Positions 55,498 through 63,766 of a stretch of 64,000 nucleotides of DNA are shown here, in pieces. A program made the position numbers and the translations under genes. Numbering within the stretch: position 1 is the first letter of the stretch; each line of letters begins with the position of its first letter. The notes beneath the pieces were generated by a model. The model was not told the DNA's origin and did no database searches. It worked only from the letters and a program-made list of their open reading frames with translations. The stretch is from Methylobacterium aquaticum. Lineage in GTDB: Bacteria; Pseudomonadota; Alphaproteobacteria; Rhizobiales; Beijerinckiaceae. Location of the stretch: contig NZ_CP043627.1 in the NCBI RefSeq assembly GCF_016804325.1, forward strand, positions 1,039,001 to 1,103,000, read 5' to 3'.

Positions 55498-56486
55498 GTG
55501 AGCGAGGCGGAGCTGCGGGAGGGCGTGATCCCGCCGGGCGAGGGGAGCGAGCGGCTGGACCGGGCGTTGGCGCGGCTGTGGCCGGATCTGTCGCGCAGCC
55601 GGTTGCAGGCGCTGATCCGCGAGGGGCAGGTGACCCTGGAGGACGCCGCCATCGATGATCCGTCGGTCAAGGTCGCGCCCGGCCGGCGCGTCGCCGTGAC
55701 GGTGCCGCCGCCGCGCCCGGCCGAGCCGGAGCCGGAGGCCCGCGACCTCGCCGTCGTCTACGAGGACGACGACCTGATCGTGATCGACAAGCCGGCGGGC
55801 TGGTGGTGCATCCGGGGGCGGGCAACGACAGCGGCACGCTGGTCAACGCGCTGCTCGCCCATTGCGGGGCGAGCCTGTCGGGCATCGGCGGGGTCGCGCG
55901 GCCGGGCATCGTCCACCGCCTCGACAAGGACACGACCGGCCTGATGGTGGTGGCCAAGACCGATCTCGCCCACCAGGACCTGTCCGCGCAATTCGCCGAT
56001 CACGGCCGCACCGGGCCCCTGGAGCGGGCCTATCTGGCGCTGGTCTGGGGCTATCCCGACCCCGCCACCGGCACGATCGATGCCGCGCTCGCCCGCTCGG
56101 AGCGCAACCGGGAGAAGATCGTCGTGGTGCGGGAGGGGCGCGGCCGCCACGCGATCACGCATTACCGCACCGAGGCCAAGCTGGGGACGCAGGAGCCGGT
56201 CGGCCTGGTGCGCTGCCGGCTCGAGACCGGGCGGACCCACCAGATCCGCGTGCATCTCTCGCATCGCGGCCACCCCCTGCTCGGGGACGCGGCCTACGGC
56301 GCGGCCTTCCGCACCAAGGCCAACCGCCTGGACCCCGAGGCGCGCCAGGCCCTCGACGACCTCGGCCGCCAGGCCCTGCATGCGGCGCTTCTCGGCTTCC
56401 GCCATCCCCGCACCGGCGACGCCCTCCGGTTCGAGAGCCCGCCGCCGCCCGACATGGCCCGGCTGATCGCGGCCCTGACGCCGTGA
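55498..56486 (+). pseudogene. RluA/RluD-family pseudouridine synthase, frameshifted
   Basis: The first frame has a GTG start and an S4 domain (ERLDRALARLWPDLSRSRLQ), then [15 protein letters not shown]. It loses the frame at GCGGGCTGG near 55798-55802. The second frame resumes with [20 protein letters not shown] and [14 protein letters not shown], the catalytic aspartate site, and ends RLIAALTP. One C inserted at the break restores [11 protein letters not shown], which is the family sequence. The corrected protein is about 329 residues. It would modify uridines in 23S rRNA. It lies next to rpoH, as is usual in this order. Confidence 0.88.
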
Positions 56487-58737: not shown

Positions 58738-59124
58738 TTACCTCACGCGGTCCCTGACATGCGCGACCCGTTCGGGCGCCGGGAGCATGCGGGTATCGAT
58801 CGCGATTTGCTGGATCAGGAACTGCCCGGCACCAACGATCTTTCCGATATAGACGCTGACCGACCGGCTCTGCGGCGCGGTGCAGACCACCCGGATGCGG
58901 CCCGTCTTGCCGTCCTTGGCCTCGCAATCCGTACCGTCGGCCGTGACGCGCTGGAAGAAGGCCGGGGTTTCTCCGACCGCCAGCGTCTCGCCTGAGCCGT
59001 CGGCGGTCGAGACTTCGAGGGGCCGGCCGGCTTCGCCGAGCAGGTCGTGCCGCTGCCAATCGACCGCATGGGCCGTGGCGGGGAGCATGAAGGCGAGGCC
59101 GTACGACGCGATTCGAAGCTTCAT
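58738..59124 (-). CDS. Small secreted protein, function unknown
   Basis: The 128-residue protein has a clear signal peptide (MKLRIASYGLAFMLPATAHA) and a mature part of about 108 residues rich in beta-strand-like pattern. Two cysteines (DGTDCEAKD and RVVCTAPQ) could form a disulfide. I recognise no family. It is divergent from the Rieske/PQQ pair across a 600-base gap and may share that control region. Confidence 0.7.
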   Translation of the reverse strand: MKLRIASYGLAFMLPATAHAVDWQRHDLLGEAGRPLEVSTADGSGETLAVGETPAFFQRVTADGTDCEAKDGKTGRIRVVCTAPQSRSVSVYIGKIVGAGQFLIQQIAIDTRMLPAPERVAHVRDRVR

Positions 59125-59726: not shown

Positions 59727-60371
59727 ATGGATCAGGAGAAAACGCAGGAACCGTCTCCGTGCCGGTGCGTCGCCGCCGAGTTGCCGCGCCGCAGCCTCCT
59801 CACGGCCGGGCTTGCGCTGCTTCTCGCGCCTCACGACGCGGCGCTGGCCGCAGGAGAGTCGAATCCCCGGGGGGCGGACGCCAAGCCTGCGAATCCCCGG
59901 AGCATGCGTCCGCAGCTCGGCGACACCTTCGCCTATCTCAGCGGCGAGTACAAAGACAAGAAGGTCATGGCGGCCGATCTCAAGGTCGGCGAGCCTCCGA
60001 GGTTGGTCTACCCCGTCGATCCGGTGACCGAGACGGTTCGCAGCGGCTCACGGGTCAACCAGATCCTGCTGATCCGTACCGAGCCGTCCCATCTCGCCGC
60101 AGCCACGGCGCCGCGGGCCGCCGAGGGTATCGTCGCTTATTCAGCGATCTGCACTCATAACGGGTGCCCTATCACTCTTCTCAACGAGGACGGGCGGTCG
60201 GTCGTCTGCACCTGCCATGGGTCGCGCTTCGATCTGGCCGATAACGGCACCGTCCTGACCGGTCCGGCTACGCGCCGCCTCGCCGCGCTTCCGATCGCCG
60301 TCACCGACGGCGTGGTGACGGTTGCAGGTCCCTTCGTCGGCACTCTCGGCGCGGCGCCGTCGCAGCAATAA
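59727..60371 (+). CDS. Rieske [2Fe-2S] protein, high-potential (bc1-type), probably exported
   Basis: The 214-residue protein has a twin-arginine signal-like start (ELPRRSLLTAGLALLLAP, R21-R22) and is probably exported folded by Tat. The cluster motifs are CTHNGC (C142, H144, C147) and CTCHGS (C161, C163, H164). C142, H144, C161 and H164 would bind the cluster, and C147-C163 would form the disulfide typical of high-potential, bc1-type Rieske proteins. There are no other bc1 genes nearby. The PQQ dehydrogenase starts 55 bases downstream, so the two are probably one operon. I infer a role as electron carrier for that enzyme. Confidence 0.85.
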   Translation: MDQEKTQEPSPCRCVAAELPRRSLLTAGLALLLAPHDAALAAGESNPRGADAKPANPRSMRPQLGDTFAYLSGEYKDKKVMAADLKVGEPPRLVYPVDPVTETVRSGSRVNQILLIRTEPSHLAAATAPRAAEGIVAYSAICTHNGCPITLLNEDGRSVVCTCHGSRFDLADNGTVLTGPATRRLAALPIAVTDGVVTVAGPFVGTLGAAPSQQ

Positions 60372-60426
60372 GCACCCCACGAATCAAGAAGCACGGCGAA
60401 GTCGTGCAAGACGGGAGGAAGACGCC

Positions 60427-62205
60427 ATGATGAAGACCGTGTCCGCGGCCCTGCTCGGGTCCGTCCTGATGCCTACACTGGCGATGGCAGAGCCCTTGAA
60501 GACATATTCGCCGGTCACGCAGCAACGGCTCTCCAACCCGGAGCCCGAGAACTGGCTGATGGCCAAGGGCAACTACGCCGGCTGGAGCTACACCCCGCTC
60601 GAGCAGGTCAATGCCGGCAACGTCAAGTCGCTCCGGCCGGTCTGGAGCTACTCGACCGGCGTGACCTCCGGCCACGAGGCACCGCCGATAGTCAACAACG
60701 GTGTCATGTACGTCGCCACGCCGTACAACCAGGTCATCGCCATGGATGCGAAGACCGGCGAGTCGGTCTGGCGCTACAAGCGCGACTTTCCCGAAGGATT
60801 CAGCGCCTTCCACTACACCAATCGTGGCGTCGCCCTGTGGGGTGACAAGGTCTACGTCGCCGGCCTCGATTGCCGGCTCGTCGCCCTCGACGCCAGGACC
60901 GGCAAGGTGGCGTGGGAGGCGGAGGTCTGCGACTGGACGCAAGGGGCCTACATCACCTCGGCCCCGGTCGCGGTGAACGGCAAGATCATGATCGGCCCGT
61001 CCGGGGGCGAGTTCGGCGTGCGCGGCTTCCTGAAAGCGTTCGATGCTGAGACCGGCAAGGAGGACTGGACCTTCTGGGCCGTGCCGGCCCCGGGCCAGCC
61101 GGGCTCCGAGACTTGGCCGAAGGAGGGCCGCTGGAAGGATGCCTGGAAGATCGGCGGCGGCACGATGTGGATGCCGGGCAACTACGACGCCAAGAACGGC
61201 GTGCTCTACTGGGGCGTCGGTAACGGCTCGCCCTGGCTCGGCGACCAGCGGCCCGGAGACAACCTCTACGTCGCTTCGGTCGTCGCGCTGAACCCGGCGG
61301 ACGGCACGATCAAGAGCCACTTCCAGTACCACTGGAACGATTCGTGGGACTGGGCCGCGATGAACGCGCCGACCCTCATCGAGCTCGATCGTGACGGCAA
61401 GAAGATGCCGGCGATGATCAGCGCCCAGCGCAACGGCTACCTCTACCGGCTCGGCCGCACCGAGGGCGGGCAGATCAGCTTCCTCGACGCCCGGCCCTTC
61501 GTGAAGAACACGGTCTTTTCGAGCGTCGATCCGAAGACCGGCCGGCCGACCTACAACCAAGCTGGCGTCCCCGGCACCGGCCGGGCGGGCACCTATTGCC
61601 CGAGCGTGTGGGGCGGCAAGGATTGGCCCTACGAGTCCTTCAACCCCAAGACCGGGATGCTCTACGTCCCGTTCAACGACAATCATTGCATGACCTATGA
61701 GGGCAAGGTCCAGGAGCGGGTTCCGGGGCAGTGGTCGGCCGGTGTCGACATCACCGACATCAAGCTGCTGATCGACAAGGACGTGAAATATATCGGCGGC
61801 ATCCAGGCGATCGATGTCAACACCAACAAGGAGGTGTGGCGCGATACCTACGCGAAGTCGTGGATGTGGGGCTCGATCCTGTCTACCGCGACGGACCTGA
61901 TTTTCGCCGGCGGCACCAGCGACCGGATGTTCCGCGCCTACGACGCGAAGTCCGGCAAGGAGTTGTGGAGCTTCAAGACCAATTCGGGGATCATCGCACC
62001 GCCGATCAGCTACGCGATCGACGGCAAGCAGTACATCGCCGTGGTCTCCGGCTGGGGCGTCGATTCCGCCCTGGTCCAGGGCATCATGGCCGACGAGCAC
62101 GGCTGGGAGAAAGACGTGCCGCAGGGCGGCACCGTCTGGGTGTTCGCCGTCGACGACGACAAGGCGCCGGAGAAGCGGGCCGAAGCGATTCCGTCCCGCC
62201 GGTGA
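60427..62205 (+). CDS. PQQ-dependent alcohol dehydrogenase-like quinoprotein
   Basis: The 592-residue periplasmic protein has a signal peptide (SAALLGSVLMPTLAMA) and an eight-bladed propeller with repeated W-motifs such as TGKVAWEAEVCDW and SGKELWSF. The catalytic aspartate is D308 in DSWDWAAMN. Ala310 takes the place of the second aspartate that binds lanthanides in XoxF-type enzymes, so calcium is the likely metal. The usual vicinal Cys-Cys pair before the NRG motif is replaced by F128-H129. No haem c motif is present. The ATG has a GGGAGGAAG ribosome site. The substrate is unknown. Confidence 0.88.
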   Translation: MMKTVSAALLGSVLMPTLAMAEPLKTYSPVTQQRLSNPEPENWLMAKGNYAGWSYTPLEQVNAGNVKSLRPVWSYSTGVTSGHEAPPIVNNGVMYVATPYNQVIAMDAKTGESVWRYKRDFPEGFSAFHYTNRGVALWGDKVYVAGLDCRLVALDARTGKVAWEAEVCDWTQGAYITSAPVAVNGKIMIGPSGGEFGVRGFLKAFDAETGKEDWTFWAVPAPGQPGSETWPKEGRWKDAWKIGGGTMWMPGNYDAKNGVLYWGVGNGSPWLGDQRPGDNLYVASVVALNPADGTIKSHFQYHWNDSWDWAAMNAPTLIELDRDGKKMPAMISAQRNGYLYRLGRTEGGQISFLDARPFVKNTVFSSVDPKTGRPTYNQAGVPGTGRAGTYCPSVWGGKDWPYESFNPKTGMLYVPFNDNHCMTYEGKVQERVPGQWSAGVDITDIKLLIDKDVKYIGGIQAIDVNTNKEVWRDTYAKSWMWGSILSTATDLIFAGGTSDRMFRAYDAKSGKELWSFKTNSGIIAPPISYAIDGKQYIAVVSGWGVDSALVQGIMADEHGWEKDVPQGGTVWVFAVDDDKAPEKRAEAIPSRR

Positions 62206-62402: not shown

Positions 62403-63766
62403 TCACGGCTGCCACTGCTCGAACGCCTCCCGCAGCACCTTCTCGCCGGCATTGCCCTTCTCGAAGGTCAGGATGGCGCGGTTGCCGTTGGCGTAGCGGA
62501 TCGGCAGGTCGATCCAGTTGCGCTTGAGCAAGAGGTCGGTGTTGCGATCGATGTCGGCCTTGAGGTTGGACAGGCCGATCAGGAAGAGGTTGTCGCGCAC
62601 CGGCACCGGCAGGCCGGAAACCGGGGAGCCGCGGCCGGCCTCGTCGTCCTTGAACTGGATCAGGCCGACATCGCGCACCGTCCGGTTCGGGTCGGTCGAG
62701 GTGAAGGTCAGTTCGAGGATGTGCGAGGCCGGCAGGGTCGCGTCGGTGTTGCGGCGGAGCACCATCGCGAGGCTCAGGCCCGCATCGGGCACGTCGACCG
62801 TGCCGCGCACGACGGTCTGGAGCGGCTGGCCCTGGCCGGCATTGACGGCGTCGAGGCGCCAGACCACCCGGGCCTGGTAGGCCTTCGGGGCGGCGCCCTG
62901 GCCGCCATTCTCCTCGTAGAGCGTGCCGCGCTGCGCCACCGCGATGTCCGGCGTCGGCGAGGGGCGCGGGGCACTGCCTTGCGGGGCAGCGGGGGCAGGC
63001 GCCGCCGCGGGGGCGGGCGCCGGGGCCGCGCGCTCGCCGCCGACCCGGTCGGCGAATTTCGAATCCTGCGGCTCGGCCGGGCGGTTGGGGCCGTTCTCGG
63101 CAAAACCCGTCGGCAGGGCGGCGGGGTTGTCGCGCAGGGACCAGGCGGTGACCGCGATGGCGCCGACGACCGCCGCCAGGACCGCCGCCACGATGCCGTT
63201 GCGTACCAGCCGCGACCGGTCGCGCTTGGGCGCCACCACGTCGAGGCGCGGCCGTTGGGGGGCGGCGAGGCCCGCCTCCGGGTTCGCCGGCTCCTCCGCC
63301 GGCTCCGGCTGGCGCGGCCGTATCGGCGGCAGCTTCAGCTCGACCGGCGGGCCGGCCTCGGGCAGGGCGTCCGCATGGTGCGTCGCCGCCGGCTCGGGCA
63401 GAGGTTCGGCAAAGGGCGCAGCAAGGGATGCGTCCGGACGCGCCGGTACTTCCGGCGGCCGGGGGACGCGGGAGGCGGCGGTTCCGGGGCCGCCTGCTCC
63501 GGCGTCGCCGCCTCCGAGACGGTGGGCCCCGACAGGGCGGGCTCCGGCTCGGGGACGCCGCCATGCTCGATCTCGAGCCGGGCGATCGCCCGGTCGAGGG
63601 AGACCCTTTCCGCCTCGATGTCGGCCTCCGACAGGGGCGGATCGAGGGAGCGGAGCTGGCCGATCAGCGCTGCGCGGGCGCGCTCATAGACCGTATGCCG
63701 CAGGTCGGGCGAACGGTCGGGCAGCGCATCGAGGGCGCGGGCGAGCAGGGGATAGTAATCGGCCAT
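62403..63766 (-). pseudogene. Membrane-anchored protein of unknown function, frameshifted
   Basis: The first frame starts MADYYPLLARALDALPD and has a helical segment (YERARAALIGQLRSLDP, EAERVSLDRAIARLE). It loses frame in the proline-rich linker near 63461, at a run of five G's. The other frame continues with PPEVPARPDASLAAP, a long linker, one membrane helix (NGIVAAVLAAVVGAIAVTAW) and a periplasmic domain ending EAFEQWQP. The joined length is one base short of about 455 residues. Homologous layouts occur across this order without assigned function. It lies upstream of purA on the same strand. Confidence 0.75.

Follow-up and report, generated by a model that had tools for sequence, protein, structure and literature searches.

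Well-studied type I and type II alcohol dehydrogenases that depend on pyrroloquinoline quinone (PQQ) are described as passing their electrons to heme c. XoxF (in the XoxF-XoxG-XoxJ system) and MxaF (with MxaG) have a dedicated cytochrome c, and the PedH/PedE-PedF and ExaA-ExaB systems use a cytochrome c550 as acceptor. XoxG- and PedF-type neighbours (the latter by annotation) were also seen beside dehydrogenases related to the one studied here. In Methylobacterium aquaticum, we examined a 64,000-nucleotide stretch of contig NZ_CP043627.1 (positions 1,039,001 to 1,103,000; called the window below, with positions counted from its first letter), where a gene for a PQQ-dependent alcohol dehydrogenase (60427-62205, + strand) lies directly behind a gene for a Rieske [2Fe-2S] protein (59727-60371, + strand). 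The original prediction proposed that electrons pass from PQQ to a 2Fe-2S cluster at this locus. Our genomic comparisons support this putative path and suggest that the Rieske protein is probably the electron acceptor of the dehydrogenase.

Both predicted open reading frames (ORFs) were confirmed. The Rieske gene extends from an ATG at 59727 to a stop at 60371 (214 aa) and the dehydrogenase gene from an ATG at 60427 to a stop at 62205 (592 aa). The 55-bp gap between them (60372-60426, + strand) contains a ribosome-binding site, GGGAGGA, ahead of the dehydrogenase ATG. Because no terminator-like site was found on the + strand of this gap and the next called gene downstream is convergent (62403-63239, - strand), the pair looks like a two-gene unit. 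A promoter scan returned a single site versus 0.4 expected by chance.

The dehydrogenase scored 543.7 bits against the TIGR03075 'methanol/ethanol family' model (cut-off 480.05), and its AF2 model aligned with 6zcv over 535 residues (rmsd 1.9) and has the eight-bladed propeller fold. It begins with a putative Sec-type signal peptide, recognized by eye, that ends in LAMA-E (residues ~1-21, 60427-60489, + strand; MMKTVSAALLGSVLMPTLAMA). The metal and base ligands are E195, N266 and D308 (i.e., the same Glu, Asn and Asp as in XoxF and MxaF, which belong to the same enzyme family). Two marks of type I enzymes (MxaF, XoxF, ExaA, PedH) are missing: an adjacent cytochrome c gene, which is usual in that type rather than universal, and the vicinal Cys-Cys, which is present in XoxF, MxaF and the Ped/Exa enzymes (6zcv) and is replaced by A127-F128 in the window enzyme. 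XoxF and MxaF also fall on separate tree branches. We considered whether His129 stands in for one of the lost cysteines; this was ruled out by the 6zcv alignment, which places it at the Asp that follows Cys-Cys, a position held by Asp or Gly. An Asp two residues past the base Asp (DxD) marks lanthanide-type PQQ dehydrogenases (PMC8561711); the window enzyme instead reads D308-W-A310 and is thus of the Ca type.

The Rieske domain was recognized by Pfam PF00355 (40.2 bits, cut-off 20.3). The cluster motifs named by the original prediction (CTHNGC and CTCHGS) are in place as C142-T-H144-N-G-C147 and C161-T-C163-H164-G-S166-R-F168, in which C142, H144, C161 and H164 (C-x-H plus C-x-x-H) are the [2Fe-2S] ligands. 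The predicted export also held up by eye: the N-terminus carries a putative twin-arginine (Tat-type) signal, PRRSLLTAGLALLLA, followed by AALA-A, within a region of approximately residues 1-42 (59727-59852, + strand; PRRSLLTAGLALLLAPHDAALA). The description as bc1-type needs refinement. The protein scored 32.6 against the proteobacterial bc1 Rieske equivalog TIGR01416 (cut-off 97.4) and 46.3 against TIGR02694, the equivalog for the arsenite oxidase small subunit AioB (cut-off 95.65), which ruled out both labels. By sequence and fold it is instead nearest to the Thermus respiratory Rieske protein (1nyk; E 4.4e-35), which was the best Protein Data Bank (PDB) match of the AF2 model (pLDDT 86.3; TMt 0.92). 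The Thermus protein is part of a cytochrome bc complex, and in the alignment it differs from the window protein by a Gly at the site of the potential-tuning Ser. Of the two residues that tune the potential, the Ser is present and the Tyr is replaced by Phe; the earlier 'high-potential' label is a prediction. Across the 92 Rieske partners compared below, the ligands are intact in every case, as are the two extra cysteines of the usual disulfide. The tuning site is Ser in 85 and Thr in 7, the other site is Phe in 83 and Tyr in 9, and 91/92 paired relatives have an RR pair within the 100 residues before the cluster, by a loose test.

Absence of the pairing from relatives had been set beforehand as the outcome that would speak against the prediction, and the comparison pointed strongly in the opposite direction. 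A Rieske-side scan of GTDB genomes yielded 487 encoded relatives, and 72 of the best 80 loci carried an adjacent PQQ dehydrogenase on the same strand (71 with the Rieske gene first and one with the dehydrogenase first); in two more the contig breaks off shortly after the dehydrogenase begins, and six are without an adjacent dehydrogenase (of these, L126 begins 143 bp away from a contig end). Because these loci had been chosen by their Rieske gene, a reciprocal test was needed. The sample of the order comprised 199 genomes, of which 11 hold a total of 12 dehydrogenases over the score limit; these 11 also hold 12 strong Rieske matches, and all 12 were adjacent (12/12). In 398 genomes of the phylum, 13 dehydrogenases and 13 Rieske genes occurred in the same 12 genomes, again all adjacent (13/13); 8 of these 12 genomes come from a single genus, and at 12/398 the module is rare. 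Both samples were evenly drawn, the score limits were set after viewing the score gap, and scoring was confined to the top candidates of each genome (up to 6, 16, 3 and 8). Across 13 pair-holding genomes, 15 clade dehydrogenases reached at least 632 bits and the next dehydrogenase scored 367. Judged from coordinates, no Rieske match of the genus, order or phylum scans adjoins any of the 32 non-clade dehydrogenases there.

Plasmids gave the same picture. All nine records with a dehydrogenase of at least 42% identity carry an adjacent Rieske gene (two of them are Paracoccus yeei with equal scores), and none of the listed plasmid dehydrogenases of 39% identity or less was found among the Rieske records (best 30 of 36). 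Gene order is reversed, with adjacency kept, in Paracoccus, Alteromonas and the loci G496 and L087. A chance neighbourhood is rejected, given that the linkage is reciprocal in both genome samples, recurs on plasmids and persists with reversed order in several lineages. Within the genus, 7/37 genomes have a strong Rieske match, and the pair is therefore an accessory trait. On the Paracoccus and Alteromonas plasmids (L165, L166, L168, L172), a hypothetical protein of ~135-155 aa follows the Rieske gene, and aldA lies a few genes from the pairs, downstream in Paracoccus and upstream in Alteromonas.

We next compared 132 dehydrogenase rows, 92 paired with a Rieske gene and 40 unpaired. The paired rows represent 89 distinct sequences (68 Rieske-chosen loci, 14 from other genomes, 8 from plasmids and 2 from this genome, with L059, L171 and L137 counted as paired). 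The set leaves out dehydrogenase matches of ~420 residues or less (truncated or split genes, among them L067, L069, L090 and a clade member of locus L109), and L029-L037 and L199-L210 lie outside it. Paired and unpaired rows fell on opposite sides of one branch (SH-aLRT 94), and the same branch for the 91 paired rows without Deinococcus reached SH-aLRT 100. The tree was built by a quick method that flagged long branches, and the paired label was assigned beforehand, with 68/92 paired rows coming from the Rieske-based fetch. Glu, Asn and Asp ligands are kept in 132/132 rows. The vicinal Cys-Cys is present in 1/92 paired (Deinococcus) versus 36/40 unpaired rows, a His after the Cys-Cys site in 91/92 versus 0/40, and a Trp after the base Asp in 91/92 versus 0/40. 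Two further candidate marks of the clade were rejected: the Trp is also found in XoxF3 (PMC8561711) and so is not unique to it, and an extra Cys pair (C150/C169) occurs in only 31/92 paired rows. Two residues after the base Asp, paired rows have Asp in 57 cases and Ala in 35. The main clade probably lost the vicinal Cys-Cys and gained a conserved His, with Ca-type and lanthanide-type forms both present. The basal form, on Deinococcus aetherius plasmid pDAETH-2 (L170), has a Rieske gene followed by a dehydrogenase that retains the vicinal Cys-Cys and, behind it, a perhaps XoxJ-like solute-binding gene.

The clade is probably PQQ alcohol dehydrogenase type 6a, as judged from sequence. In M. aquaticum 22A, plasmid pMaq22A_1p carries both pairs, with dehydrogenases at 144 kb (96.5% identical to the window enzyme) and 449 kb (96.0% identical to its paralogue, described below), each with a Rieske gene. 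The positions of these two plasmid pairs are consistent with the adh6 and adh4 locus-tag numbers, and we infer that the genes are adh6 (the window orthologue, 96.5%) and adh4. Adh4 and Adh6 are assigned to type 6a, said to be an uncharacterized family (PMC7356819), and some minor members of groups 7, 8 and 9, of which group 7 is type 6a, are noted to lack the Cys-Cys (PMC8561711). Strains of 22A that retain only one of the two likely orthologues exist, and mutants keeping one gene were tried on methanol and ethanol; in the section on these mutants, growth is stated for other genes and is not spelled out for the adh4 and adh6 strains, and the word Rieske does not occur in the main text (PMC7356819). 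In the open-access literature, which excludes subscription papers and preprints and was available in part, we found no description of a Rieske partner of a PQQ alcohol dehydrogenase. For Bathyarchaeia, it has been speculated that PQQ-domain proteins may indirectly supply electrons to Rieske proteins that are small and intracellular (PMC11697101).

The original prediction also held that no cytochrome c accompanies the pair. This is correct for the locus, since no called gene of the 64-kb window contains CXXCH (by a simple codon-composition caller), and incorrect for the genome, which has 13 matches to PF13442, 9 of them over cut-off. Such absence is usual for the clade: a same-strand or fused CXXCH ORF was found within 2 kb of 7/92 paired versus 29/40 unpaired dehydrogenases, where most of these ORFs are not confirmed as cytochromes and the flank of some loci is limited to 1.5 kb. 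The CXXCH ORF in L134 looks unlike a cytochrome, and the one in L092 is part of the locus of another dehydrogenase nearby. No product was named cytochrome in seven annotated plasmid regions (8 kb requested per side, less at record ends, with incomplete gene tables; an eighth region carries no annotation), although a large ORF with CXXCH is present in the Alteromonas region. Large heme-motif ORFs lie near two pairs (L132:12180-14312 and L168:8899-12288).

The same genome holds a second Rieske and PQQ dehydrogenase pair (C1:303.3-305.8 kb), whose dehydrogenase is 53% identical to the window enzyme and reads D-W-D (i.e., the lanthanide type). The region noted for this pair, with a SCO1/SenC copper-chaperone gene just upstream, is C1:302424-305829 (L020:12424-15829). 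Neither Rieske-linked dehydrogenase has a PF13442 match within 100 kb (the search covered this one cytochrome family). Of four other PQQ dehydrogenase genes, three (MxaF-like and XoxF-like, both named by eye, and one at C1:5748877) have a PF13442 match within ~2 kb, that near C1:5748877 scoring 24.5 bits, under the cut-off of 27; the fourth (C1:221-222 kb) is without a nearby match. The XoxF-like gene (C1:5642006-5644092; L024:7007-9093) was called in two overlapping frames and may be frameshifted.

We think it likely that the pair forms one periplasmic electron-transfer module, in which the Rieske protein would accept electrons from PQQH2 and pass them to a general cytochrome c. The dehydrogenase would be exported by Sec, would bind PQQ and Ca2+ in the periplasm, and would oxidize a putative alcohol substrate to form PQQH2, while its Rieske partner would be exported folded via Tat. 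We infer that the two proteins would interact physically and that PQQH2 would reduce the Rieske cluster in two single-electron steps. The Rieske protein would thereby occupy the role that XoxG, MxaG or ExaB/PedF has in other systems; it would then reduce a general periplasmic cytochrome c, most likely one of the genome's PF13442-matching proteins, from which a terminal oxidase would receive electrons. Arsenite oxidase is a periplasmic enzyme exported by Tat. This enzyme (AioBA) has a comparable arrangement, in which a Rieske subunit receives electrons from the catalytic one and hands them on to cytochrome c, and an arsenite oxidase complex with its Rieske subunit (PDB entry 8ed4) was among our structure matches; it differs in its catalytic partner, which is a molybdenum enzyme that contains a 3Fe-4S cluster. 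Rieske proteins with Ser and Phe have potentials of +335 mV (Kustd1480) and +225 mV (NT-26 AioB), and the Thr form was measured at +130 to +160 mV (PMC12954380, PMC3758308). Because these values exceed the +90 mV given for PQQ (PMC11697101), for which the enzyme-bound value may differ, transfer from PQQH2 to the Rieske cluster would be downhill. Of the six Rieske loci without an adjacent dehydrogenase, two from Entotheonella (L078:9908-11808 and L079:9938-11829) have a gene with one CXXCH behind the Rieske gene, which would fit a step from Rieske protein to cytochrome c.

Several observations weigh against this module. The order sample includes three weak Rieske matches (60-69 bits) in other genomes, which have no clade dehydrogenase. 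A heme-motif ORF is present within 2 kb in seven of the paired rows, and that of L087 is a cytochrome c (PF00034 over cut-off, PF13442 under). No fused Rieske-dehydrogenase protein was noticed, in work that included no dedicated search for fusions. The mirror-tree correlation between the two proteins (r 0.73; 76 rows; 0 of 2000 permutations) is what any co-inherited neighbours would be expected to show, and linkage carries no information on which way the electrons flow.

We therefore weighed other ways to read the pair. The dehydrogenase could reduce an unlinked cytochrome c directly and leave the Rieske protein another job (sensing, protection or reduction of the enzyme). The 13 PF13442 matches in the genome are compatible with this, and a missing local cytochrome is no proof of an alternative acceptor because the unpaired dehydrogenases L195 and L198 also have none in their flanks (L195 is cut on one side) and 11/40 unpaired rows lack a nearby heme-motif ORF. 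We nonetheless regard a direct route as unlikely, since the one-to-one linkage in the samples and the intact cluster ligands in all partners fit an obligatory redox partner better. Another proposal, that cytochrome bc1 uses the Rieske protein as a spare or alternative subunit whose gene is beside the dehydrogenase by happenstance, draws on the fold of the protein and its Ser/Phe cluster surroundings, which the genome's own bc1 Rieske shares (CPCHGSQF); exchangeable bc1 Rieske isoforms in Rubrivivax are also indicated, by a paper title. That bc1 Rieske is a separate, third gene (C1:3482321) next to cytochrome b (named by eye), and the score of the window protein is well under the bc1 equivalog cut-off. 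Every strong Rieske match in the two genome samples adjoins a clade dehydrogenase, and A-x-A-like sites follow the signal in 90/91 relatives; hydrophobicity did not decide between a soluble and an anchored protein (31/91 reach 1.6, and the own bc1 Rieske 1.85). A bc1 isoform is accordingly quite improbable in our view. We give the least credence, and very little, to a stable complex of the pair that delivers electrons straight to an oxidase, a cupredoxin or another terminal acceptor without a cytochrome c step. The SCO1/SenC gene beside the second pair would suit such a route; against it, no oxidase or cupredoxin was recognized among the neighbour clusters (ten neighbours were searched with Pfam, and the rest were named by eye or left unjudged), and arsenite oxidase, the closest working analogue, uses a cytochrome c.

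Genes around the pairs offer a hint of their metabolic setting. Within ~7 kb of 74 pair loci (72 from the set of 80 and two from this genome), a cluster represented by an aldehyde dehydrogenase occurs in 15 and one represented by a molybdopterin-binding hydroxylase in 17, which suggests a pathway from alcohol to aldehyde to acid. Upstream of the Rieske gene in the window, a divergent gene (58738-59124, - strand) encodes a small, probably exported protein; its cluster is present in 5/74 pair loci, and the L059 homologue has no Pfam match. Elsewhere in the window, an RluD-like pseudouridine synthase (55498-56486, named by eye) is split into overlapping frames (55498-55944 and 55803-56486), possibly by a frameshift.

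Together, these data argue strongly, on genomic grounds, for a new partner of a known enzyme fold rather than for a new fold. If the Rieske protein is the acceptor, it would give electrons a new way to leave PQQ and would supply a partner for seemingly the entire named enzyme type 6a. The system is simple, with two proteins, and the same genome holds Ca-type and lanthanide-type versions of the pair. The system also offers a natural experiment that bears on what the vicinal disulfide does in electron transfer.

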